Virus record (IMG/VR): IMGVR_UViG_3300013109_000378
Span: 1 to 20,014 of that record
Origin: a virus
Direction: 5' to 3' (one strand)
Length of the DNA stretch: 20,014 bases
This document shows positions 3,728 to 19,900 of this stretch, in pieces. Position 1 is the stretch's first letter. Every line of letters begins with the position of its first letter. The translations under genes and the position numbers were made by a program. Below the pieces are notes generated by a model, which did not search any database, was not told where the DNA came from, and saw nothing but the letters and a program-made list of their open reading frames with translations.

Positions 3728-6640
3728 CTATGCTATTGAAGACCCGGCCTTGTTGCCCGTTATTACATCCTCTACGACGACTTCGAAAACTTCTGCCAAC
3801 TTTCTACTATTAACATTTATTGCGACATTGGTGTCTGATGCCGAAGATGTTCCTGATCCGGAAGACTGTGCTTGGGGTTGGGGTCGAACCGTTGATGATG
3901 CTGGCATATTCGGTGCCTGTTTTGGTCCCCCGCCCTTGATCGGGTTTCTGCCCACGTCGTATCTCTCGGACGGTATCTTCACTGAGTTCAGTGCCTCTAC
4001 TTTTGAAGCTTCTTCGGGGGTCAGAGGAACGGGGACGCCATTCTTCTCGACCACAATTCCTCCGATCATCGTTGCAGTCATTGCTGATGATTTTTTCGGT
4101 GCGGAGGCATTGGCCATGCCGCCGACAACCTGCGAAGCAGTAACTGGTTTTGGTTTTTTCTTTTCCTCTTCATCGTCACCGAACCAAGAACTAAAAAATG
4201 ATTCTGTGGCCGGTTTTGTTTTTGTTTGGGGTGCATCGTTGTCATCGTCTGGTCCTAGTCCTGGAATCCAAGAGACAAGTGCCAGTAGTTTTTCCTTTAT
4301 CCAGTCGATGCCGGACATGAGTCCGTCCTTTATGGCATTTGGAATTGTTTCTGCAAAAAACCCAACAATCAAATCTTTCAAGGCAATAAATGGAGACAAA
4401 ACCCTCTCAGTTATCCTCTTGCTTCCGGATGCCAACGCGTTGCCGAAAGAATCAACTCCAGTTTTGATGTATCCCAATAAATCCTTTACCAAATCAAAGG
4501 CAAGTTTAAACGGCATCTCTATAATGTCCCGAACCCCTATCCAGGTATCTCGAATAAATCCAGTAAGTCCTAAAATTGGAGCACCTATAGCCTGCACCAC
4601 ATCATAGGCAAGTTCTCCCACGATAGAGAAAACATCCGATATTAACTCCCCAACCATTGCCATTTTTTCAAAAGGCCACAGCAAGACATCCAGCACAGCT
4701 TCCGCGATGTCGAAAACCACTCCAGTGATTATTCTACCAAGTGCAATAACTGGTTTTGCAATGGACCATAAAACTTTAAGAGTAGAACCAAGAATACTAA
4801 CAAACGGGGTTGCTGCCTTGACCACCATCTTGAGTGCTCTTCTTATAAATCCAAATGTTGGTTCCATGAACTCAAAGACATTCTTCATCATGTCCATCAT
4901 TCCTCCAGAACCTCCACCAAATAAATCTGACATCATTTCTCCAAGTTGATCTAACCCCAGTGCCATTGCCAAGTTATCAGCAAATGCCATCACTGCCTTG
5001 CCGATGCCGGAGAAGAAATCCAAAGTTTGATTTGCTGTTTCTGCCAATCTCGTCATAGGATCAACCGCTTCTCCTAGTCCCTCAAGTTGAGATTCATCTA
5101 TCTCCCCTGTTAGGAACTTAGTCATAGTTGCCTCGTCCATACCAGCTGCCTCGGCCATGGCCATTCTTTGATGTCTGGACATGTCTTCTATGGATTTTCC
5201 AGTGGCATCGAATTGCTCCTTTATCTTAGCAGCAACTCCAGCTGGTCCTTCTTCGTTTTGGACGGACATCATCTCCATTGTATCCAGGAACTGTCCTCCC
5301 ATCAAATAATTCAAATCGGCAACAGAACTGGCAGCAGAATCAAAAGTATCAAACTTCTTGCCCAACTCAACCAAGTCTCCGATCTCCATACCGAGTTGTC
5401 GTGCTGTTCCTGCTGTCTTTAAAAATACCTTATCCGCATTTGCACCGAAGGAAGAGAAATCTTTTTGGGAAGATGCCATCATGGAAGATAATTCTCCAAA
5501 AGACATACCCAATTGATTAGAGGCAGTCTGTAATGTACCCATTGTCTCCTGAGCTTCTGGTCCTGTTTTTCCCATTACCGTCATTTGGTGACTTAGGATA
5601 GATGTATAGTCATCTGTCGAAACTCCCAATCTCTCCACTGCTAAACCAACTTCGGCAAATTGAGAAACCTGCCCTCTGGACATTCCCTGAAGTCCTGCTA
5701 GTGAGTTTTGAAGTTTTCCTGCTTGTTCGACGAGTTCTCCAGTGGAGGCAACGACCCCGCGGGTGCCAGCAGACATCTCTATTGTCGCAGCAAAATAGTC
5801 CCGGCCTTGGCCTGTTGTAGCAGCAAGTGATGCTGCCATTTTATCAAACTTTAGTGTTGCGAATACGACAAACTCTCCCAATTTCTGAACAGCAGAAATG
5901 GCAAGAGCTTGCCAGTTTAGGAAACGTCCTACTCCTGCGGTTAAACCGCTCATAACTGCTTCAGCAGCATCGCCGCCCTTGATCAGTCCACCGACTACAG
6001 AGGTGATGCCCCCCTCTTTGGGTTCCTGTATTCCCATCATGCCAGCAAAGCTGCCGACTAATTCTTCAGCGCCGTCTTTTGCATCTCGGATGGACAAAGT
6101 TTCTTTCCTTTGTTTCTCCATCTCCTTTGTTATCTGTTTGTGCTTATCTAGTGCCTTCTCTAACCAATCGTTCTCGTCCTCGGTTAATTGAATACCATCT
6201 CTCCTGCTTTTAGTCTGTAGGTCTAGGATTTTTTTCTTCTCTTTTTGGAAATCAATATCTTCCTGTAGGGCGACCAATCCTTCTTGGTGTTTCTTGAGGG
6301 CATCACCAGTGAGTCCCGTAACAGCTTGTTGGGCTCGCAGTTGTTTGTCAAGTTGTTCGACTAGATCATCCTGTTTCTTTTTCATCTCCTCCATGTCCTC
6401 TTTTCGGAGCAGAGCAATTTCAAGAATATCTTCCGACATCTCTTTTTCGATCATCAGTTGTTTTATTTTTTCCTTCTGTAATTCCATTGGGGATACATCG
6501 GTGGCAGACCCAACCCTGTCTCTCCCCAGTGAGGAATTAAACCCACTACTCTCAGAAGATCTCTGGTTTCTGTCTTTCTTGATTTCATCAACCAGATCTT
6601 TTAATGCTTTATTTAAATTTCTAATTTCGTCTGGAGACAT
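3728..6640 (-). CDS. Tail length tape measure protein
   Basis: Protein of 970 aa that should sit inside the tail tube during assembly and set tail length. Residues ~50-195 are charged and heptad-like (coiled coil). From ~245 to 545 comes an Ala/Gly/Met/Ser-rich helical region (AASLAATTGQGRDYFAATIEM, VEQAGKLQNSLAGLQGMSR) typical of tape measures. Residues ~595-790 carry several hydrophobic helical segments, for example around FIRRALKMVVKAATPFVSIL. The last ~165 residues are rich in P, K, S and T and likely disordered. With the usual rule of about 0.15 nm per residue, the tail would be near 145 nm. It is far longer than T4 gp29 (about 590 aa). It follows the chaperone-like genes and a small gene, as expected. 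The ribosome binding site AGGGGG (6648-6653) overlaps the stop of the upstream gene. Confidence 0.9.
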   Translation of the reverse strand: MSPDEIRNLNKALKDLVDEIKKDRNQRSSESSGFNSSLGRDRVGSATDVSPMELQKEKIKQLMIEKEMSEDILEIALLRKEDMEEMKKKQDDLVEQLDKQLRAQQAVTGLTGDALKKHQEGLVALQEDIDFQKEKKKILDLQTKSRRDGIQLTEDENDWLEKALDKHKQITKEMEKQRKETLSIRDAKDGAEELVGSFAGMMGIQEPKEGGITSVVGGLIKGGDAAEAVMSGLTAGVGRFLNWQALAISAVQKLGEFVVFATLKFDKMAASLAATTGQGRDYFAATIEMSAGTRGVVASTGELVEQAGKLQNSLAGLQGMSRGQVSQFAEVGLAVERLGVSTDDYTSILSHQMTVMGKTGPEAQETMGTLQTASNQLGMSFGELSSMMASSQKDFSSFGANADKVFLKTAGTARQLGMEIGDLVELGKKFDTFDSAASSVADLNYLMGGQFLDTMEMMSVQNEEGPAGVAAKIKEQFDATGKSIEDMSRHQRMAMAEAAGMDEATMTKFLTGEIDESQLEGLGEAVDPMTRLAETANQTLDFFSGIGKAVMAFADNLAMALGLDQLGEMMSDLFGGGSGGMMDMMKNVFEFMEPTFGFIRRALKMVVKAATPFVSILGSTLKVLWSIAKPVIALGRIITGVVFDIAEAVLDVLLWPFEKMAMVGELISDVFSIVGELAYDVVQAIGAPILGLTGFIRDTWIGVRDIIEMPFKLAFDLVKDLLGYIKTGVDSFGNALASGSKRITERVLSPFIALKDLIVGFFAETIPNAIKDGLMSGIDWIKEKLLALVSWIPGLGPDDDNDAPQTKTKPATESFFSSWFGDDEEEKKKPKPVTASQVVGGMANASAPKKSSAMTATMIGGIVVEKNGVPVPLTPEEASKVEALNSVKIPSERYDVGRNPIKGGGPKQAPNMPASSTVRPQPQAQSSGSGTSSASDTNVAINVNSRKLAEVFEVVVEDVITGNKAGSSIA

Positions 6641-6651
6641 TACTTATCCCC

Positions 6652-6978
6652 CTATTTGAAAGGCCACTTAATCTTTGTGCTTCTTTCAAAATTCTTGACG
6701 GCAGTATTTAGACCTGCTCTGTTGCGATGAGTGATGGGGTTATCAAGTCCGTATCTCTGGTATGCGGAAAGGTATCTCTTTTCTTTACCCAATACCTTGG
6801 CAAAGTCACCAATCTGCCTTTTGGTTCCCTTTACGTTCACCGGGATCGATACACTATCTCCGAAGACGTACCTCATTGCAACCTTAACGACATTGCCAAA
6901 CATTTTCAGAAAGCTCTCGTTAAGCTCTCCGTTTGCCGCGGCATTGAGATCAATTGTCATTTGTTCTTCTTGTTCCAT
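6652..6978 (-). CDS. Small conserved-looking tail protein of unknown function
   Basis: Protein of 108 aa, sequence beginning MEQEEQMTIDLNAAANGELNESFLKMFG. The middle holds VVKVAMRYVFGDSVSIPVNVKGT and the end is basic (YQRYGLDNPITHRNRAGLN, then KIKWPFK). No membrane segment stands out beyond a moderately hydrophobic helix near residues 27-40. I recall similar short proteins next to tape measures in other large T4-like phages but cannot name a function. It starts behind a good AGAGGA site 7 bases upstream of the ATG. It sits in the tail operon, directly before the tape measure, so a role in tape measure handling or tail assembly is plausible but unproven. Confidence 0.7.
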   Translation of the reverse strand: MEQEEQMTIDLNAAANGELNESFLKMFGNVVKVAMRYVFGDSVSIPVNVKGTKRQIGDFAKVLGKEKRYLSAYQRYGLDNPITHRNRAGLNTAVKNFERSTKIKWPFK

Positions 6979-7022: not shown

Positions 7023-7250
7023 TCACCTGTTCTTTTTCTGTGCTTTCTCCATCTCTGACTTCTCATCTTCGAATTGTTTAATAAGTCTTTTCAGAAACCA
7101 TCTTCTAATTTGAATAGGTAAGTTGTAAACCTCTATGAAACTCCAACCACCATGATGCTTTAAGTTAAAGATCTCTTCGTAGACGGATTCAACATAATCA
7201 TTGGTCAGGCCAAAAAAACCGAGGAGTGATGGGCACCTCCACGGGCCCAC
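7023..7250 (-). CDS. ATG-less overlapping frame: probable frameshift extension of the gp26-like protein
   Basis: Open frame of 75 codons overlapping the end of the gp26-like gene by 53 bases. The only conventional start at its 5' end is GTG at 7250, without a Shine-Dalgarno sequence, and it contains no ATG until near its C-terminus. The part beyond the overlap encodes TNDYVESVYEEIFNLKHHGG, then WSFIEVYNLPIQIRRWFLKR and an acidic/basic helical end (EDEKSEMEKAQKKNR). This resembles small helical proteins that follow gp26-like genes in other phages and the 'T' part of G/GT tail chaperones. The simplest reading is that it is made as a fusion with the upstream product by a -2 or +1 slip at the T7 run (7212-7218), adding 62 residues. 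Alternative: inefficient independent initiation at GTG. Confidence 0.65.
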   Translation of the reverse strand: MGPWRCPSLLGFFGLTNDYVESVYEEIFNLKHHGGWSFIEVYNLPIQIRRWFLKRLIKQFEDEKSEMEKAQKKNR

Positions 7251-8055
7251 TGTGATCGCAACTTATACAGGTAAACTCCTGCTCCAGTTTCATGGTTGGG
7301 TTAATGATCTTATAAACCCCCCTGATATATCTGGAATCCATTGCTGACATTGTATCTACAAACTGGGAAATTACTTCCCTGTCTCTGTTTCCTGCTACGG
7401 AAAGCACCATCAACTTTAATATGTTTGTTAAAACCGATGATGGCATGTTGTGTTTCTTTAATTTCTCTTCTGTCTTTGTCATCTCTACCTCATCCTTGGA
7501 GGAGAGGAACCTCAATTCGACCTTGTAACCAGATCTTGGCATAGTCAGGAGGGGATACCCTTCGGAACTAACCTCAATGTCATCGAGCTTATCTACTCCA
7601 CCTTTTGTCGCACCGGAAAACTTACTTGCTTCCTCTAAATCCACTTCCACTTCATTTGGCTTATTGCAGGATGGGCAGTTTATTTTAATTGGGTACTCTG
7701 GTCCGTATCCGGAAATGCGAGATGACACAATGAGGGCATTCTTGTCTCCGATCAGTAAGTCGGGAACTTTTATGCTCTTGTCCAAAATGATGTTCTGTAG
7801 CATCCTATCAACAGCTGTGCCGTTTTTTAATAATGCGGGAGAATTCAATATATCCTCTTCTTTTGCTGTCATATATTTTATTTCAATTGTTTCTTGCTTG
7901 TACAGGGGGTGCCCTTCGGGGTAATACATTCCACCAGAAGGTAATTCTACAAATTCCGTTGGAACTGCAAAATTTAACTGATCCCCGGATACAGAAACAG
8001 GGGCAGAAGTATCAGCTTCTCCCCCGATTTTGTCGAGATTATTTCTTTTTGTCAT
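7198..8055 (-). CDS. T4 gp26-like baseplate/tail assembly protein with zinc-binding motifs
   Basis: Protein of 285 aa. Recognisable features are FVELPSGGMYYPEGHPLY (residues ~35-52), IEIKYMTAKEEDIL, then DKNALIVSSRISGYGPEYPI and two cysteine pairs, CPSC near residue 127 and CISC near residue 263, which could together bind zinc. This matches the T4 gp26-type (T4_baseplate) family as I know it. T4 gp26 is needed for hub assembly but is not a clear part of the finished tail, so an assembly-factor role is reasonable. The gene sits between tail tube and tape measure, where tail assembly chaperones are usual. It ends in PRFFWPDQ, in the overlap with the next frame. Upstream of the ATG is only a weak AGG. 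Family assignment is good; the chaperone role is an inference from position. Confidence 0.78.
   Translation of the reverse strand: MTKRNNLDKIGGEADTSAPVSVSGDQLNFAVPTEFVELPSGGMYYPEGHPLYKQETIEIKYMTAKEEDILNSPALLKNGTAVDRMLQNIILDKSIKVPDLLIGDKNALIVSSRISGYGPEYPIKINCPSCNKPNEVEVDLEEASKFSGATKGGVDKLDDIEVSSEGYPLLTMPRSGYKVELRFLSSKDEVEMTKTEEKLKKHNMPSSVLTNILKLMVLSVAGNRDREVISQFVDTMSAMDSRYIRGVYKIINPTMKLEQEFTCISCDHSGPVEVPITPRFFWPDQ
7210..7221 (-). promoter_or_regulatory. Candidate programmed frameshift site (seven-T run)
   Basis: On the coding strand the gp26-like frame reads CGG TTT TTT TGG, with the T run at 7212-7218. The overlapping downstream frame reads GGT TTT TTT GGC. A -1 shift would hit TGA within three codons, so only -2 or +1 joins the frames. 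Repeated Phe codons allow re-pairing for either shift. Upstream lies a possible 5-bp hairpin (TGGGC 7245-7249 with GCCCA 7230-7234) and a Shine-Dalgarno-like GGAGG (7236-7240), 17 bases before the run. Their role is speculative. Confidence 0.55.
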
Positions 8056-8069
8056 AAAAACCTAGCTTT

Positions 8070-8678
8070 CTATTCGGTTGGTGATAATTGACCTTCGGCA
8101 TCAGAAGAGAAGAAAGTATCAGTATCCTTGCCTTTTTGCCCAACAGCACCCATGCCACCACTTGTTCTAAGTGTGGCCCAATCATATCTTATCGTAAGTG
8201 TGATATTTGTTAAGTCATCCGACTCGTAACTCAATTCACCCCAATCGACATTGGTAATAAACGCACCGTTAAGAACCCACTCTTCGACCACGTTATTGTC
8301 ATTGGAATCAAATTGTTTAATTCTTACTTTGCCCAAGGCATTGGTTGCTGCTTGCTTGGTAATTGAATCCGTTACCGAATCATTTCCTGGAACAACATAT
8401 CCACTTTCTTTGAGCATGTTTGCCATTAAACCAGCAGCATTGGGAGAAACCGGATCAACGAGCGTGCAATTTACCGTATCCCACTCAACTCGACCAGGAT
8501 AATAGAAGGTGTGATTGAGATACTTGTGACTTACCTCTCCAACAGTTGCCGATGGTTTCTTTACTTGCGTCACTAACCACGACATCTCCCCACCACCTGC
8601 ACCCTCGATTGAGAGGAGGAATCTATAACTTCTTTTTGGTTGCGAAGCCTTACTTGTCCAAAATCTTTTTTCTGCCAT
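8070..8678 (-). CDS. Tail tube protein (T4 gp19-like)
   Basis: Protein of 202 aa expected to form the hexameric rings of the inner tube. Features of the T4 gp19 family are visible: a basic/aromatic N-terminus (MAEKRFWTSKASQPKRSYRF), MSWLVTQVKKPS, the segment YLNHTFYYPGRVEWDTVNCT, LKESGYVVPG, and a C-terminal beta region VNIT-type strand followed by IRYDWATL. It is somewhat longer than T4 gp19 (163 aa), with a Gly/Ser/Asp-rich tail of about 30 residues. It follows the sheath gene directly, the order found in nearly all contractile phages. The start has an AAGGGAG site (8688-8694), 9 bases upstream. Strong call from both sequence and context. Confidence 0.9.
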   Translation of the reverse strand: MAEKRFWTSKASQPKRSYRFLLSIEGAGGGEMSWLVTQVKKPSATVGEVSHKYLNHTFYYPGRVEWDTVNCTLVDPVSPNAAGLMANMLKESGYVVPGNDSVTDSITKQAATNALGKVRIKQFDSNDNNVVEEWVLNGAFITNVDWGELSYESDDLTNITLTIRYDWATLRTSGGMGAVGQKGKDTDTFFSSDAEGQLSPTE

Positions 8679-8722: not shown

Positions 8723-11581
8723 TTAATCGTCAAAAGATGCTCCACTGCGAAGAATTGTGAAATCAATCGCAATATACTCAGCAGTTCTAGTTGGTTTAAG
8801 CATTACCTTCGCATACATGATATTTCTATCAACTAAGTCTGCGGTTGTTGTGGTTTCATCAAGGACAACTCTGAAATCTGTGAGTCCGAATTGATTCTTG
8901 ATGTTATCCAAAAATGGTTCTGCTTGATTGGTGAAATTTTCCCAAGTTGTTTTAACATTGGGACTGAAAAGCATTGTCGATGCAATTCTTGAGATTCCCT
9001 TCTTGACGTGAATCATTAGTCTACGGACATTGATTCTATCAAGTGCCGAAGGTGTAGTCTGTAGAGTCTTTTGACCGAAGATTACAATTCCTTCTGCTGG
9101 AAATTTCGCAATTGGATTAACACTTCTTTCATAAAGTTTGTCCCTGTCTTTTCTCGAAAGTTGCTCACGGACACCGACGACTGGTATACCTGCGGCACCG
9201 TCAGTGAGTCCACCACGAGTGAATCCTGCTGGTGCGAACCAAGGTGCTGACTTCTTGTCAGTGCTTGAGAAAGTTCCCATAGCAGCAACAGAAGGTGGCA
9301 TCCAGATTAAGGAACCTGCTCCAGCTGTGTCCCTAACTTGGACCCAAGGATGGAAAGCACAAGCATAACTTGTATTCAATCCTCTGTTCTTTAGGTTGCT
9401 AAGAATTTTATCTGTGGAACCTTGTCTCGTTGCGGCAGTAGAGGTTGACTCATGAAGTGGTTCATATCCACCCGGAAGATCAATGACTGCCAGTGCATCT
9501 GCACGAGATTCACATGTCGTAATCAAATGATCAGTGATGCTAGTATTTGTGATTCCAGGAACACATGCTGCATTCATCTCCACAACCTCTGCATCAGAAA
9601 CCGAATCAATTGCTCTCTTCAGTGAATGAAACGCATAATTTGTCTCTTCGGTCGCAGTTGTGAGTCCGGAGTTTCTAAAAGGATCTCTTTCCTTAATGTC
9701 CAACCCATCTGCTCCACCAAATAGGGGCATCGTGAAACTATCAAACCCGGCATCTAACACAGAAGTGTAGGAACCAAAGTTTGTTGAATTGTCCGGTGCT
9801 AGAGTTGCACCACAAGAAGTGATTGAGTGACCGGACTTTCTACTTCCCTCTCTGTATGCGGCATGTTTTTGCACACCCGCGGAACCAGACGCATAGTGTA
9901 AGTCATCAAGGGAGAATGTAAATTGTAGTCCTACATTATCCTTTGTTCCATCAAAGGAGTCATATGATTTTGGTTTTGCTCTTAGCAAATCAAAATTACT
10001 CTTCTCCAACATGTTCGTAGTTCTCTCTGTGCTCTCAAAACCGAAACAGGCTAAGGCAGGGTCAGTGATTCCACCGTCGGAACTTGAAGTTCTTAACGCA
10101 AGCTTCGGGAATTCTGCTCTGAGCAAAAGTAATGGACCTGTCTCAGCTGAACCGGAGGTGGTGAGATCTTTGCCGGATTCTCTATTTAGCGTTGGTTCTA
10201 AACTATCTGCACCGATAACAGTGTTGCCCGTAATTGTGCCACCGGATACGGTTATCGCATCAAGTCTGGTTGGTCCTTCGAAACCAAAGGGCAACGAGAG
10301 TGGGTTCATCCCACCGTTAGCAACCATCTCTTTTACTTCTACACGAACAAACTTAGATTGATTATTATAATCTCCGTATACAGTGTACTTGTTCTTGTCG
10401 TTGTCCCACGTTCTATACTTGTCACCAACCTTGGTGGCAATATAGTTCGAGGAATTTGGATTCAAACTACAACCTGTGAAGGATTCTAGTACCCTCGTTT
10501 TCCCGTCATGGTCTGACAATTCTCTGACCTGCACAGTGAACGTGCCGTAGGGATCGTTATTGGGATCGAGTGATGCCTTAATGTCTGAAATTGTGATCTT
10601 GACACTTCTCTGTGCCTCTTCTCCTTCATCAAGTGCAACAAGTCTGAATAACTTGTCCATATTTGAAGCAGCATAATTCGCATTATCGCTTGTCAAATCT
10701 TGGGCAATGACCCAACCTGATTGTGCGGAAGTCACTGCCCTCTCATGGTTGTATCCATTGGCAATTGGTAATACAAATCCATATGCTTTTCCAGCAGCAG
10801 CATTGGGTGATGTAGACCCGCCACCGATGGTGTCATAAAGACTTCTTTCGAAAGTTTCTCCCAAAAAGTAATCTGATTGAGCAGTGTTCTTTGGACCCAA
10901 CATGGTTGGATCGGTGTTGAACACCTTTCTAATATAGAGATCGGAATTAGGATTAAAGTTGAACGAAGATGTAAGAGTAGCAGATGTACCCTTGCCGATG
11001 ACTGCCTTAAACTGAAAGTCTCCTCCGTTATTCTTAACAACAGTACCAACACCGTCTTGGCCGGCTGTGCCTTCTGGGGCATTGCCCAGTAACTTCACAT
11101 ATCCAGCATCGAGATACCAGACTGCTGCCAAAGATGCAGTAAGACTGTTGGAACCAGATGGCATAACGAACAATCCATAGGCACCACCATTCGCAGTTGC
11201 GTCAATTCCTTCGGATTTTACGGACCACCCTGCGGCACCGGCTGCGGTCGCTTGTGGGTGTTGGGCACCTAAAAGTCTAACAACCGTTAGGGCACTTGAA
11301 TTTCTCAACCATGCTTGAGCAGCATAGGTAGCATACATAGGAGAGGTCTTATTTCCATCTCTCCACACATCTCCTGCTTCACCTCCGGCCACGGGACTCC
11401 CGAATACTGCCTCAAACTCTGCCATCGAAGTTACTCTAACCGGTTTAAGACCTGGTCCTCGTCGAGTTCTTCCGATAACTACAGGACCAATATCCTGTGG
11501 TGTTTTTGGGAGTTGGGAGCTATCTATTTCATCGAGGAAAACTCCGGGGGATACAAATCTAAATTTTCTTGAATCTGCCAT
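8723..11581 (-). CDS. Contractile tail sheath protein (T4 gp18-like)
   Basis: Protein of 952 aa. The N-terminus has the sheath signature FVSPGVFLDEID, followed by GPVVIGRTRRGPGLKPVRV and a GSPV loop. The middle (~150-600) is a large, variable insertion. From ~620 the conserved sheath core appears: GADGLDIKERDPF, VIDLPGGYEP near 702, FHPWVQVRD, IWMPPSVAAMG, APWFAPAGFTRGG near 783, NPIAKFPAEGIVIFGQKTL, then NVRRLMIHVKK and the C-terminal DFTILRSGASF. It is much longer than T4 gp18 (659 aa), the excess being in the surface insertion. I place the start at ATG 11581, 10 bases from AAGGAG (11592-11597). An in-frame TTG at 11587, 4 bases from that site, is less likely. Confidence 0.95.
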   Translation of the reverse strand: MADSRKFRFVSPGVFLDEIDSSQLPKTPQDIGPVVIGRTRRGPGLKPVRVTSMAEFEAVFGSPVAGGEAGDVWRDGNKTSPMYATYAAQAWLRNSSALTVVRLLGAQHPQATAAGAAGWSVKSEGIDATANGGAYGLFVMPSGSNSLTASLAAVWYLDAGYVKLLGNAPEGTAGQDGVGTVVKNNGGDFQFKAVIGKGTSATLTSSFNFNPNSDLYIRKVFNTDPTMLGPKNTAQSDYFLGETFERSLYDTIGGGSTSPNAAAGKAYGFVLPIANGYNHERAVTSAQSGWVIAQDLTSDNANYAASNMDKLFRLVALDEGEEAQRSVKITISDIKASLDPNNDPYGTFTVQVRELSDHDGKTRVLESFTGCSLNPNSSNYIATKVGDKYRTWDNDKNKYTVYGDYNNQSKFVRVEVKEMVANGGMNPLSLPFGFEGPTRLDAITVSGGTITGNTVIGADSLEPTLNRESGKDLTTSGSAETGPLLLLRAEFPKLALRTSSSDGGITDPALACFGFESTERTTNMLEKSNFDLLRAKPKSYDSFDGTKDNVGLQFTFSLDDLHYASGSAGVQKHAAYREGSRKSGHSITSCGATLAPDNSTNFGSYTSVLDAGFDSFTMPLFGGADGLDIKERDPFRNSGLTTATEETNYAFHSLKRAIDSVSDAEVVEMNAACVPGITNTSITDHLITTCESRADALAVIDLPGGYEPLHESTSTAATRQGSTDKILSNLKNRGLNTSYACAFHPWVQVRDTAGAGSLIWMPPSVAAMGTFSSTDKKSAPWFAPAGFTRGGLTDGAAGIPVVGVREQLSRKDRDKLYERSVNPIAKFPAEGIVIFGQKTLQTTPSALDRINVRRLMIHVKKGISRIASTMLFSPNVKTTWENFTNQAEPFLDNIKNQFGLTDFRVVLDETTTTADLVDRNIMYAKVMLKPTRTAEYIAIDFTILRSGASFDD

Positions 11582-11670
11582 TTTCAACTATCTCCTTGTG
11601 TGTGCCTATTCGACAATTGCTTTACTGTCACTTACTAAATAGTGTTTTTCTTTTCCAAAGGCAAGGTTTA
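11582..11670 (-). promoter_or_regulatory. Longest intergenic gap, leader of the sheath gene
   Basis: The 89 bases between the gp15-like stop and the sheath start are AT-rich and contain the sheath ribosome binding site. On the coding strand they also contain ACTATTTA (11636-11643), an 8-mer repeated in the gap before the 108-aa gene (6998-7005). A late promoter for the abundant sheath and tube genes would be expected here, but I find no exact TATAAATA in this orientation. Confidence 0.25.
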
Positions 11671-13947: not shown

Positions 13948-16900
13948 CTATGATCCATATACAAAAGATATTCGAGACAAATATCCCGTCCAGTCTTTGT
14001 GTGCGGTTATCCTTACTACTAAGTAGTCTGCATTGCCTCCCGAAGTTCCGTTTAAGGTTGCAGTCCGGAAGTTTATGCCGTAAGAAGTGCCGTCGGCATC
14101 GACAGTTTGATTCACATCTCCACCACCACCGTTGAATCCACCAACATCGTTAGTTATGTTCTCTCCAACATTAGCAGGTCTTGCCATGTCTAACCACCCT
14201 GTGTCTCCCGGTATCTTAACTTCACAATGAATATTCTTATTTGCTCCCACTGCACCTGTGTTGAATGCCCCACCTTTTGCGACGAGGTTGGCATCGCCAT
14301 AGAGAGTGACAGTTGCAAGAGAAACATCACCAACTTGATTTGAACGGAAATATCGATAATATTCCCTTGTTGTGGTTGCCAGGGAGGAGTAATTGGGGTT
14401 GCCACCGGGAGATTGAAGAACTCCACCATTTACTACGGAACGGTAATCACCACTCAACCCCCCCTTTGATGGGGAGAGGAGTTTGCCTCCGTAAAGAGAA
14501 AGTCCATTCGAATATCTGATATAAGATCCAACATCGTTCTCACTAATAGAGGAGTCCCACTTGTTGCCTGCATTGGTGACACTGTTTTGAGTGGCATAGG
14601 AGCCCGACTGTAATCTATATTTCTCTCCATCCATAGGTTCATTCGTATTAATATTTCCTGACTCACTGCCACTGAATACTAGAAAACTGTGCTGATTAAC
14701 GGTTGATGTAGTCAAGTTTGATTTCAGTGGGTGTTTCACTCTGGAGTTGACTGAGGCAGTGTGGGAAACAGATGCATGTTCTCCCACTAAGGAGGTCGCA
14801 GGATCAAACGTGACTGTTCCCGTAACAAAGAGGATTTGATTTTGCGAATTTGCAGAAGTGGACAAAGGTGGAAGTGCCTTTGTTGCTCCGTTTGTTGTTC
14901 CTGGTGACGAGAGTCCACTGCCATTCGTGGTTATCTTCGAGACAGATGTGTTTGTCGTAGTTGGGAAACTAATGCCATCACTAAGTTCATAATACACATT
15001 TTTATACACATTTGAGACAGAGTATCGATATGAAGAAGAGCAAGTAGTAAAGTATTTTACACCAGAAAGAGAGAAAAACACACTTCCAGAAAAAGAATCC
15101 AAAACAACACCTGCTGATGCGAGTGCATTTGAGTCATTATCGTTCACCCACTCCACATAGTTTGTAGTTGTTTGACCTATTTCAGAACCGGTGTGGAACA
15201 CCCTTGCGTAGTTCCACCCATTCCTCTGATCGGCCGCAGTGACTTGATATTTTCCCGTCCTATACATCTTTGTGTAATCCGGAAGATTGTTTCCTGAGTA
15301 TTTTCCTGCGTCATAATTGCTCAAACTAACGAACCCGGAACCGTTCCCGTTGACCTCCGAGTCTGTCCCTGATCCTGGGTTTCCCGATCCTACACTAGCA
15401 CTGGCCAGATCAACCTCGTGTATAACTGCTCCATTTACTTCCAACTTCAAACTACCAGTGGCAGCATTGTTGAAAGAGTTTGCCACATAACTCGGACTGT
15501 TTGCTGAGACATCCTCATTTAACTCCCCATCGATCACTGCTGTGCCGTCAAAGATACCAGCTATATCGAGACTACTAACGTAGTTACCGTTTAGATCTAC
15601 GGCCGAATTACCAGTGGTTGTTGTTACGTTGGAGTATCCTCCGATGGATTTTGATGACCCAAAAGATAATTTAGCATCTTGGCCATTGTCATTAATATCG
15701 ATGTCATCAAGGACAGGCGCGTCCGAAGGGGATGCTCCGGTGCCTGCGCCAAAAGAAACAACTATATCGTCAACATATCCTGTCCAGGCCGTTGTTGCCT
15801 CTATCTTTAAAACAATGTCATCTCCGTTGGCAACACCTGTTGTTCCGAAAGACAATCGATTTTCTGCATCGACAGAATTATCAAAAGACAGAACATACGC
15901 ACCGGAGCCGTCGGATGTATCGTCAAAAGTGAAAGATTGGGCAACATCCATAAACCCAGTGGATCCTGGAATCTTTATAAATGCTCTGATTCTGCCGGAA
16001 TTTAGGGCACTGCTGCTTGGCACTATTGTAGTAGAAGAACCATTTATCGTTAGAACAATGTCCCTCTTGGTTGCTCCAGTGGAATTTCTAAAATATCTAA
16101 AGAATGACCTCAACCCGGATTCACTAGAATAATCTGGATTTCCGGGAGGTGCGACACCGAGGGGGCCACCTTCGGCATTGTCACGAAAATCACCATCGTT
16201 CAAGGTTGCAAGTGGTGAATAGAGTCGGGCATTATAAAACTGCAATCCGTCAGAGTGGTGTCCGGAGGCAGTCATGTGAGTTTGAGAATTCCAAGTCCCA
16301 CTATCGACATCCGATTGGTTATCGTATGATCCAGATGAAAGACGATAGGATTCTATTTTAAATCTTTCTCGGAGTGCGGTGGAGTTACCTGAAATGTTGT
16401 AAATGAGAAGACCTGTTAGGTTTGCTGTCCCTGCATTATTGAGATCTGATTTGAGTGGGTGAGCAACATTGACCTTGGAGGTGAGGGTGCCACTGAGGAA
16501 TGTGTTGCCCGATGATGTTGCACTCCCTGTGATTCTCAAGACTTTTGTCTCGTCCTCTCCGGCACCAGTGTTTAGTGGTGGAAATCCTTGCGATGAGATT
16601 GTGCAATTCGTATTTGTAAAGGAAATGTTTTGTGTCGTATACACATTCTTGTATGCATTGTTGACATCGACGAGGTAATCTGCCGTGATGGATGTGAAGT
16701 ACTTTACTCCTGAGAGGTATTTGCTTCCAGATCCTGCTGCATTTGTAAATCTTGCGTTTGTGGCAGTGAGGGCGGTGTTGTTGTTGTCGTTTACCCACTG
16801 GACATGGTTCGTTGTTTTTAATCCCCACGAACCAGAATGCTTTACTTCCGCATAGTTCCATCCATTTCGTTGATTGGCAGCTGCAATCTTATAATCTGCC

Positions 16901-19900
16901 GTTCTATGTTGAAAGATGCTGAACTGGTTTTGACTGCGATCTTGTGCAGACGAGGTTGTCGAGACGTTATAGAACCCTGAACCGGCACCGTTCAGGTGAC
17001 TGCCATTTCCACTTCCAGGATTCCCGGAACCAATAGAGTCTGAGGTCAGGTCGATGCTGTGAAGTTGTGCTCCATTTACAAACAACTGAAGTGATCCTGT
17101 TTCAGCATTACCAAATGAGTCTGCGGGATAGTTGACGACAGAGTTGTCGTATGTATCCGTAGCAACATGAAAATTTACCTCCCCATTAATTACGGTAGAT
17201 CCGTTGAATGTTGCTCTGCGGAGATTGTTACCAGATGACTGAACTTGGCTCGTATCATTAACATCTAATCCGGCAAAACTATCGAGAGTTGCCACGTTCG
17301 TGTATCCCGATATTGTGTTTGCTGCTCCGAATGATAGTTCGGCAGAAACACCCGTATCTGAGCAATTTATTTTCGATACATCAGGTGCTGGAGAGGGTGC
17401 TAGTATTTTTAGGATTTCGTTGAACCTGTCAACAGAAACACCGATGGAGGTATTGCTTGTAAAATCTGTGAAAAGACCATCCGTATAAGATCCGTCTTCG
17501 GCGTTACCAATTGTGGTGGTGCCGCCACCTCCACCTGTGGATGAAATAGTTATCTGACCATTGGAGCCTGTCACGAGAGTAACATTAGATCCTCCAATGA
17601 GGTAGGGATTGCCGTTTCGAAGTTTCGTTAAGGAGCCTGTCAGAGCAGTGGCAATGAGATCACCAACTGTTATATCGTTTGTTGTGGTGGCCCCGTTATC
17701 AGTTATTTGATCTAATGTTGATGCTGTTGAGATTCCGGTAAGCTTAGATCCGTCACCGTAGAATGCCGATGCAGACATGTTTATCGATGCAGACAAGTTT
17801 CCAATGATCGTGGCGTTGCCAGTGTGACTTCCATCCCACTCTGCTGTGACTCCGGTGAGGCTTGATCCATCACCGTAAAAACCTGATGCAGAAACATTTA
17901 CCGAGGCAGATAACCCTGCAACTGCAAGTGTTGAGGTTGTTGTGGCACCTCTTCCGGTGACACTCTGTAAAGTGTCTGTTTCCGCATAATAACTTGCAGT
18001 TTGTGCAGTGACGACATAGGATGCGGTTTGGGCAGTGACTGCATTAGTTGCGTTGGTTGCACTAGCAACTGTGCCGACGATATTCCCAGCAGTGATTGCC
18101 GTAAGATTTGCACCATTACCATAAAATGCCGATGAGGACATGCTTATTGATGCAGACAAGTTTCCGATGATGGTTGCATTGCCTGTGTGGGAACCATCCC
18201 ATTCTGCTGTGACTCCAGTGATATTGGAACCATCTCCATAAAATCCCGATGCTGAAATGTTGGTGGATGCAGATAAAGCTGCAACGGAAAGGGTGCCTGT
18301 CGAGGTTGCCCCACGAGCAGTTACCGATTGGAGAGTGTCTGTCTCTGCGTAGTAAGATGCAGTTTGGGCAGTAACTGCATTCGTTGCATTGGCAATTGCT
18401 CCAACGATGTTGCCAGCAGTGATGTTGGTAAGTGCCGAACCGTTACCTGTGAATGTGGACGCAAGAATGCCAGATGATGCACTCAACTGCCCATCTATGG
18501 TTGCATTGCCTGTGTGGGAACCATCCCATTCTGCTGTGACTCCCGTGATGTTTGATCCATCTCCATAAAATGCTGATGCAGACATGTTCATTGATGAAGA
18601 TAGATTTCCTATAATTGTGGCATCTCCATTATGTGATCCGTCCCACTCTGCTGTGACTCCAGTGATATTGGAACCATCACCATAAAAACCGGATGCTGAA
18701 ATGTTGATGGATGCAGATAACCCCGATACCGAAAGGGTGCCTGTGGTGGTTGACCCCCTGGAAGTGACACTCTGAAGGGTGTCTGTCTCTGCATAATAAC
18801 TTGCTGTTTGGGCAGTGACTGCGTTTGTCGCATTGGATACTGCCCCGTTTACAGCAGAACCAATTATATATGATGCTGTATGGGCCAAGGCAACGGCACC
18901 GTCTACATTCACCCCCAGAATATAGTCTGTCTGGGTTGAACGATCTGCAAGGGTTGAGTGCGATGCTGTTCCAAAGAGAGATCCCGTAAAAGACGTGGCG
19001 GTGATCGAAGCAGAGGTGGAGTTGCCGTTATTTGTAATGTATTGCAAAGTAAAATCTGTTGCACTTCTGCCACCAACAGTAGACGCATTTACTGCCTGCG
19101 ATGCGTAGGAAGCAGAATTTGCAATGGACGCAGTGAGGGCATTGGTTATCGATCCGGTCAATGTTGCTGAAGATCCAATTGTAATTTCACTCGTGGTCGT
19201 ATCAATATCTATATTGGGGCCGGCAAGCAATGACTTAAACTGCAATTCTCTGCCGACCTTCTGGCTAAACAGTCCGATCCCCGTACCAAGATTTTTAACA
19301 GTATTTATTTCACCATCGGCACCTGTTGTCAGTGTTGCGTTGTCGCACAACTCTGTTGATGTCATGTCGATAATTTTACCATCAACTTTTTGTTGAGAAA
19401 GTTTAAAAACACCCTCTCTTGACCTAATGCATGTCGCAACAATTTCAAATTTCTGATCTACCTGTCCGAAGAGTTGCCTCGGCTGTCCAACTGTTGTTAT
19501 TTCATAAAGGATCTTACCATATAAGACAAAATCACCCTCCCTCACAAAGAGGTTCTGATCTTCTGAGAGTCTCCTTTTGTGAAACCTGACAGTTATCTGA
19601 GATCTTCTGTCTATCCCTAGATTTGTGTTGGTTGTATCCGACCCCTCCCATGAGACTGCGGCAAAGACTCGCATTGGTGGAAGGAATGTCTTTTTTACGG
19701 CCTCTCCGTAGAGGTCATGAAAATTACTGTGCTTTACGCTGACCGGAAAATAGACGACTTGTTGCCCAATCACTCGTTCGAGCATCTCATCATTAACTTG
19801 CTTTACTAAGTCCGTTGATTTTTTCCCTGTGAAGAGTGGTGGGGGTGGATTTGAGGGTCTTTCGGATATTTCCTCACATGCTACCGGTGTTGTTCCGGAA

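Follow-up and report, generated by a model that had tools for sequence, protein, structure and literature searches.

In a group of phages related to T4, ribosomes very probably skip one base at a run of Ts near the end of a gene resembling T4 gene 26, and one gene would thereby specify both a short and a long form of a protein used in building the tail, as judged from comparison of many related sequences. The locus considered here lies in a viral fragment of 20,014 bases (the window), with its features on the minus strand. We put at roughly 0.85 the probability that this is the tail assembly chaperone locus of a contractile-tailed phage related to T4, and that a +1 shift there gives, besides a short form of 285 aa, a long form of 343 aa. 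At the level of sequence, four things can be seen: a frame relation that is conserved, a site that is conserved, a change at the site in the frame in which conservation is concentrated, and a type of site that changes with the frame. That shifting occurs, how often it does so, that the tRNA re-pairs as described below and that the products act as chaperones is inferred.

The gp26-like gene and the frame that overlaps its end

In the window, genes for tail sheath and tail tube are followed by the gp26-like gene and a long tape-measure candidate (Table 1), an order that is the same, by annotation, in Listeria phage LIS04. The best PHROG match of the tape-measure candidate is to a family of unknown function (phrog_17020, E 0.0034); in Flavobacterium phage immuto and in LIS04, the annotation gives the name of tape measure to a long gene soon downstream of the gp26-like one. 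The gp26-like gene sits between a tail tube gene (by phrog_4542) and the tape-measure candidate (named by position and length), as chaperone pairs do. No PHROG match at E 0.1 was found for the 108-aa ORF that precedes the tape-measure candidate, and the window has no Rfam match at the gathering thresholds.

Two neighbouring genes deserve brief mention. The 954-aa sheath protein matches phrog_23 over residues 394-952 only, so that it has an extra N-terminal part; and a 1945-aa protein (13948-19785, minus strand), without a PHROG match at E 0.1, contains repeats of the type GDGSNITGVTAEWDGSHTGNATI and has the look of an adhesin or a long tail fibre.

Table 1. Features of the window (coordinates are those of the 20,014-base fragment) and, in the last row, related loci in jumbo phages
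Feature	Position	Strand	Remarks
Tail sheath gene	8723..11587	-	phrog_23 tail sheath, E 4.5e-71; PF17482
Tail tube gene	8070..8678	-	Upstream neighbour of gp26-like gene; phrog_4542 tail tube, E 3e-30
gp26-like gene	7198..8055	-	285 aa; T4_baseplate family; proposed short tail assembly chaperone form
Overlapping small frame	7262-7023 (open)	-	At the 3' end of gp26-like gene
SD-like GGAGGTG	7234..7240	-	18 nt before P-site codon; role doubtful
Putative shift site TTT_TTT_TGG	7218-7210	-	P-site UUU 7215-7213; A-site UGG 7212-7210; skipped base T 7212
+1-frame C-terminal extension	7026..7211	-	62 aa from GGC; predicted in long form only
Predicted long product P0001	7026..8055	-	343 aa; translation with one +1 step
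108-aa ORF	6652..6978	-	Between chaperone gene and tape-measure candidate
Tape-measure candidate	3728..6640	-	970 aa; named from position and length only
Jumbo-phage loci with -1 extension frame	L089, L091-L096, L207-L216		T_TTT_TTY after gp26-like gene

The last codons of the gp26-like ORF (8055..7198) are CGG TTT TTT TGG CCT GAC CAA TGA, with seven Ts at 7218-7212 and the stop at 7200-7198. A first-pass annotation had drawn attention to a 75-codon frame (7250..7023) that begins with GTG, has neither an ATG start nor a ribosome binding site and overlaps the gp26-like gene by 53 bases across the T run. All of this is borne out: the overlap with the GTG-initiated version is 7250-7198, the preceding CTGTATAAGTTGCGATCACA shows no Shine–Dalgarno sequence for the GTG, and the only other ATG, GTG or TTG in the second frame, which actually opens at 7262 and has its stop at 7025-7023, is an internal ATG at 7052. 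The same annotation excluded the common -1 shift, rightly: the -1 frame at the site reads GTT TTT TTG GCC TGA and closes immediately, so that the locus does not have the arrangement of a canonical -1 shift, in which an X_XXY_YYZ heptamer in the 0 frame goes with the -1 relation. The second frame continues the gp26-like gene by a +1 or -2 shift only, as had been proposed, and the predicted product of about 343-344 aa agrees with the 343 residues obtained by translation with a +1 step.

Distribution of the frame relation

Scans of viral contigs with four queries (the window protein, that of locus L032 from the odd marine group discussed below, and those of Escherichia phage 121Q and SP-15) gave 164 loci, to which 15 of the 62 phage records with a match were added, a total of 179. 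The window-protein scan kept 80 of at least 599 relatives in viral contigs and the L032 scan 80 of 451, so the locus set is a sample of near relatives. Two loci (L064 and L141) end before the gp26 stop and were dropped; of the 177 that reach it, 152 are distinct over 450 bases. The 100 representatives used below stand for clusters at 80% nucleotide identity. The loci are kin, so none of the counts that follow are counts of independent events.

When homologues are aligned, which had been suggested as a check on the fusion, the frame relation proves to be conserved: an iterated extension profile places the extension best in the +1/-2 relation in 135 of the 152 distinct loci, and in the -1 relation in 17. 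The profile match is strong for most loci and weak in distant ones (E 8.7 for BRock, L086; 3.3 for Cassandra, L096; 0.15 for XacN1, L089; 0.087 for Atu_ph07, L094), so that in these and other jumbo phages the assignment of frame depends on the open frame and on profile comparison. A small frame standing apart from the gp26-like gene, with an ATG and a Shine–Dalgarno site, would have refuted a fusion, but in none of the 100 representatives does it stand apart: it overlaps the gp26-like gene in all of them, opening at least 20 nt before the gp26 stop in every one and at most 40 nt before it in 37.

Such an overlap might in principle come from an error in sequencing, or from a mutation that has truly broken the frame of a gene in decay, but this can be practically dismissed when the relation is found in 135 of 152 distinct loci, including the complete genomes of the isolates immuto, Mel-JY01 and SP-15. 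Moreover, a close relative on a separate contig (L002), which shows 30 differences over 4951 bases, shares the T run, which is thus not the error of one assembly.

Bacterial genomes gave 15 matches, all in metagenome-assembled genomes and on contigs ranging from 3.1 kb to a 2.8-Mb chromosome (L182). A +1 frame of extension length, recognized as an open frame rather than by the profile, is present in 14 of the 14 that could be read, the remaining one (L195) being cut off. One of these contigs (NHDW01000006.1, 305838 bases, binned as Methylococcaceae) has a gp26-like gene near both ends, identical over the 4000 bases compared (L184 and L185); it is perhaps a mis-binned jumbo phage genome with a terminal repeat, lying in a species reference genome.

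Conservation of the site and of its surroundings

All 135 loci with the +1/-2 relation have, 2-8 codons before the stop, a UUU or CUU codon that is in frame and has a pyrimidine (U or C) next to it on the 3' side. This rule was picked after the data were seen; random 16-codon windows of the 100 representative genes contain such a site in 18.9 cases per 100 on average. The T run had been expected to be conserved if it mattered, and it is: the site reads TTT TTT TGG CCT in 107 of the 135 loci, the others being mostly TTT TTT TAC or TAT, TTT CTT TGG or TTC TTT TGG, with single cases that include TTT TTT CAC, TTC TTT CGT, CTG TTT CGC and AAC TTT CTA. The canonical site is present in 78 of the representatives, the remaining 22 being without TTTTTTTGG, a sequence found in frame nowhere else in the 100 representative genes. 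TTT TTT pairs occur only four times among 24950 other codons of the representatives; phenylalanine codons elsewhere in the 135 genes are TTT in 954 cases and TTC in 314.

The frame in which conservation is concentrated changes at the site. Among the 100 representatives, conservation upstream peaks at position 2 of the 0-frame (1.00 versus 0.57 and 0.18 bits), and downstream at position 2 of the +1 frame (1.07 versus 0.29 and 0.43 bits). Where TTTTTTTGG is lacking (22 representatives), the change of frame is clear downstream (0.76 versus 0.31 and 0.29) and weak upstream (0.71 versus 0.63 and 0.27).

The codon before the run is also constrained. Where it belongs to a two-fold set it ends in C in 56 of 56 loci (1774 of 6453 elsewhere), and where it belongs to a four-fold set it ends in T in none of 54 (5354 of 12958 elsewhere); the 24 remaining loci have other codons there, and overall the codon never ends in T if the nine-T run of L027 is counted from its start. 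A T in this position would create U_UUU_UUN, the -1 heptamer found in jumbo phages, which among the 135 +1 loci occurs in L027 only. On these sequence comparisons, the frame relation and the site in the gp26-like family are not due to chance.

Direction of the shift

The choice between +1 and -2 had been left open; the proposal of a fusion is supported, and the choice can now be sharpened, since +1 fits all representatives and -2 does not. Clean +1 re-pairing at the site, found in 100 of 100 representatives, is implied by the site rule itself. Under a symmetric test, in which one rule was applied to +1 and -2 alike across the final 12 codons that overlap, a clean +1 codon was again found in all 100, so that the hallmark of +1 P-site slippage (a P-site tRNA able to re-pair one base 3') is general, and a clean -2 codon in 88 (94 if a G-U pair is allowed at position 1). 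A stop or a rare CGN codon in the A site is not part of the arrangement: the window has UGG, and CGN is found in two of the 135 loci (CTG TTT CGC and TTC TTT CGT).

A -2 ribosomal shift at the T run would lead into the same frame, with the junction RFFFGLTND, and at TTT TTT TGG, as in the window and 78 of the 100 representatives, the P-site tRNA would re-pair equally well. It seems nonetheless improbable, because it involves mismatches at the site in eight representatives (TTC TTT TGG in three, and TTC TTT TAC, TTC TTT CGT, CTG TTT CGC, AAC TTT CTA and GAG TTT TTT), and because, within the 12 codons tested, a clean codon for -2 is missing altogether from 12 of the 100 (six under the looser rule), and one for +1 from none. 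The GAG TTT TTT mismatch is that of LIS04, which has other choices. Slightly less probable still is transcriptional slippage, by which the seven Ts, rightly placed for it, would give mRNAs one base shorter or two bases longer: loci in which the run is interrupted still have the frame relation (TTT CTT TGG in five representatives, TTC TTT TGG in three, and TTC TTT TAC, TTC TTT CGT, CTG TTT CGC and AAC TTT CTA), which speaks against slippage by the polymerase.

Starts and possible stimulators

Could the small frame instead be a separate gene, with the GTG at 7250 or a non-standard codon as its start, or with its translation coupled to the gp26 stop? Such a GTG is present, some ATG, GTG or TTG precedes the conserved core in 58 of the 100 representatives, so that separate translation is conceivable in individual loci, a separate CDS is annotated in Microcystis phage Mel-JY01 and several other records, and an ATG overlaps the stop in seven of 16 jumbo loci. 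Against this, 42 representatives have no ATG, GTG or TTG before the conserved core, and the frame opens within 40 nt of the stop in 37. An SD-like match of at least 5 precedes the start of the small frame in 11 of 100, compared with 43 of 92 gp26 starts and 28 of 91 starts of the gene that follows (with a match of at least 4, 23 of 100, 59 of 92 and 54 of 91), a comparison tempered by the fact that many real starts also lack an SD-like match. Separate translation would, moreover, explain neither the conserved T run nor the base upstream of it, and we consider it very unlikely.

The shift that we favour may receive little help from its surroundings. SD-like matches of at least 5 lie upstream of the site in 35 of 100 representatives (a mean of 18.2 per 100 in control windows), and one at 18-19 nt before the site is common to 26. 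In the well-known case of prfB, the gene for RF2, in which a +1 shift takes place at CUU_UGA, the SD element is 3 nt upstream, and 18-19 nt is too far for the same arrangement. Mean folding z was -0.96 downstream and -1.01 upstream of the site (-0.25 and -0.20 in control windows), so that the search for stimulators around the site revealed weak extra folding on both sides and no clear or strong element. Five representatives share with prfB both CUU_U and the +1 relation; unlike prfB, the present sites have no stop codon in the A site and no SD 3 nt upstream.

Relatives with the -1 relation

The 17 distinct loci with the -1 relation carry a canonical -1 heptamer instead, either A_AAU_UUC or U_UUU_UUY. 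The first is characteristic of a marine group (L030, L032, L101-L104, L106 and L107), whose eight distinct loci all have A_AAT_TTC together with the -1 relation, reading AAT TTC TTC TGG CCT TCC CGG TAG, and all lack UUU/CUU_Y near the stop; by its sequence, A_AAT_TTC is the obvious candidate for their shift site. The second, as T_TTT_TTY, was found with the -1 relation in 16 of 16 jumbo-phage loci tested (121Q, BF, Kaldavass, Atu_ph07, Vibrio 2.275, Cassandra, XacN1 and relatives), and also in the uncultured LR756511. In seven of the 16 an ATG of the extension frame overlaps the gp26 stop, so the extension could there be a separate, coupled protein; of seven annotated jumbo records, six show a separate small hypothetical protein and one (Cassandra) none.

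By profile comparison, the -1 extension of the jumbo phages is a homologue of the +1 extension (probability 94.7%, E 6.3e-08). A tree of 122 proteins, with the long branches of BRock, T4 gp26 and XacN1 unsurely placed, has the A_AAT_TTC group (seven rows) as a clade (100/100) that lies among rows of the +1 type; the jumbo phages form another clade (99/94), and T4 gp26 with the gp51s a third (100/97). Three label changes, the least possible, suffice. The type of putative shift site and the frame relation change together across relatives, and the simplest reading of the sequences is that there was one change from +1 to -1 inside the gp26-like family.

The protein products and their likely role

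The gp26-like product belongs to the T4_baseplate family (PF12322: E 3.3e-15, 56.8 bits against a cut-off of 24.5, residues 37-281), which is also matched by T4 gp26 (E 8.8e-64) and gp51 (E 3.9e-52), and it matches phrog_150 (baseplate hub, E 4.1e-20). The extension is less easily named. PF20546 (DUF6760) scored 17 bits against a cut-off of 27 (E 0.0063), and matched eight of 30 extensions at E up to 0.05 (best 4.9e-05); being below the cut-off, it was rejected as the family name. The baseplate hub assembly catalyst family phrog_634 matched four of 30 weakly (best E 0.0082).

An AlphaFold2 model of the long form had a mean pLDDT of 83.9, falling to 49-61 at residues 281-320. The FFWP ends of homologues fell in the extension region of the underlying alignment, which contained no true extension relatives, so the modelled extension depends on the query alone; modelled by itself, it consisted of helices (mean pLDDT 86.7). 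When 993 solved chains were re-aligned to the long-form model, the top matches were to YqbN (3klu, Z 5.7), which we take to be a chaperone relative, and to the HK97 tail assembly chaperone (2ob9, Z 5.6), both over residues 19-119 with rmsd 5.6-5.7 A. These values, below Z 8, are weak; 72 of the 993 chains reached Z 2 or more, and chains of Cren7, an unrelated protein, came within 1 of the top (Z up to 5.2) on another part of the model, residues 119-281. Foldseek against the PDB gave no match at E 0.001 or better (2ob9 had E 0.75), and against viral models gave 62 matches at E 0.001 or below; those with names among the 50 listed were mostly baseplate hub or baseplate proteins, adding no function.

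Taken with gene order, this weak and tied fold match favours a role in tail assembly as chaperone, and the membership of PF12322 is consistent with a short and long chaperone pair of the lambda G/GT kind; the link with tail chaperone frameshifts, made in the first-pass annotation, is supported. We envisage that most ribosomes would end at the TGA, releasing the short form, and that a minority would slip by +1 while UUU occupies the P site and UGG the A site. The phenylalanine tRNA would re-pair one base 3' on UUU, the skipped T would be lost to the reading, and translation would resume at GGC CTG ACC, to give the long form with its helical extension. If lambda G/GT is a guide, the tape measure protein may be coated by numerous short copies and a few long ones, the extension serving to recruit the tail tube protein.

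Relation to known systems

Vladimirov, Gautam and Davidson (2022; Virology 566:9-15) reportedly deal with the chaperones of T4-like phages. According to passages in two later papers, some T4-like phages have one short chaperone gene and a longer fused copy instead of frameshifting (PMC10885494, citing Vladimirov 2022), and poly-T sequences are known -1 signals in the TAC-N genes of T4-like phages (PMC12846349, citing Vladimirov 2022). These particular passages name neither gp26 nor gp51, and the link would lie in both of these matching PF12322; in a further passage, gp26 and gp51 are listed as hub assembly chaperones (PMC3004832). In the same sources, CUU before a stop was counted (PMC10885494), and the chaperones of Vandenendeviridae and Andersonviridae are described as using a -1 frameshift at GTTTTT, with the extension frame open in every Vandenendeviridae genome examined (PMC12846349). 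Of the classical G-T shift it is stated that it is widely conserved except in T4, and of that in HSTV-2 that it is 'very likely +1' (PMC5009743); in HF1-like haloviruses a +1 shift at TTT-CGC has been proposed between the tail tube and tape measure genes (PMC7230728). From these passages (PMC10885494, PMC12846349, PMC5009743, PMC7230728 and PMC3004832), the kind of system is known, and pairs of a short and a long chaperone have already been published for T4-like phages. The earlier suggestion that nothing of the kind was known is outdated, in view of the published chaperone pairs and poly-T -1 signals (PMC10885494, PMC12846349). Among the papers listed by a literature search, and in the passages cited above, there was no +1 site in gp26-type chaperones and no change of direction inside the family, although Vladimirov 2022 may contain such a site. 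What is apparently new, on present sequences, is a widespread +1 signal in the gp26-like family without a stop at the shift, together with a switch to -1 inside the family.

The lambda G/GT type (TAC-N/TAC-NC) is shifted by -1, whereas the present family belongs with T4 gp26, has the +1 relation and has Cys pairs of Zn-ribbon type, its products being predicted. Phage Mu uses a -2 ribosomal frameshift.

As in the Vandenendeviridae and Andersonviridae passages, the site is T-rich and at the end of the TAC-N gene, but the shift is -1 there and +1 here. The likeness to the HF1-like viruses and HSTV-2, so far as those passages go, lies in a +1 shift at a P-site TTT in myovirus chaperone genes, and BRock (CTG TTT CGC) and SagM-GXN1 (TTC TTT CGT) even have the same TTT-CGN; but the HF1-like viruses are archaeal and have UUU_CGC, against UUU_UUU_UGG in most of the present phages, and the likeness meant here is one of site.

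In T4 itself, gp26 and gp51 are members of the one PF12322 family encoded by two genes, in place of the single recoded gene described here. T4 gp51 has 249 residues, and its PF12322 match stops at residue 201, so that a C-terminal addition lies beyond; this tail of gp51 has, by eye, a motif like that of the extension. HHalign comparison of the gp51 tail with the extensions gave probabilities of 1.2% (+1), 20% (jumbo) and 17% (both), in the same register, and homology is not established. Visual inspection of the ends of both T4 genes (26 and 51) revealed no shift site.

Implications

Taking everything together, we think it on balance probable, though less so than the reading of the single locus, that UUU_UUU_UGG is a widespread bacterial +1 signal that needs no stop codon or nearby SD and serves the tail chaperone of very many T4-related phages; that +1 at UUU_Y, -1 at U_UUU_UUY, -1 at A_AAU_UUC and the gene duplication of T4 are four exchangeable routes to the same end; and that the direction switched at least once inside the +1 clade. 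For annotation, the consequence is that the extension, at present recorded as a separate small protein in immuto, Mel-JY01, SP-15 and BRock and unannotated in LIS04, would be part of a longer product. For the study of recoding, the gp26-like family would offer natural tests of how ribosomes slip, in that site and direction change together in relatives and the synonymous choice of codon before the site follows the direction of the shift. And if the reading of gp26 and gp51 given above is true, relatives in which a single gene would supply both forms may make the role of these two T4 proteins open to test.
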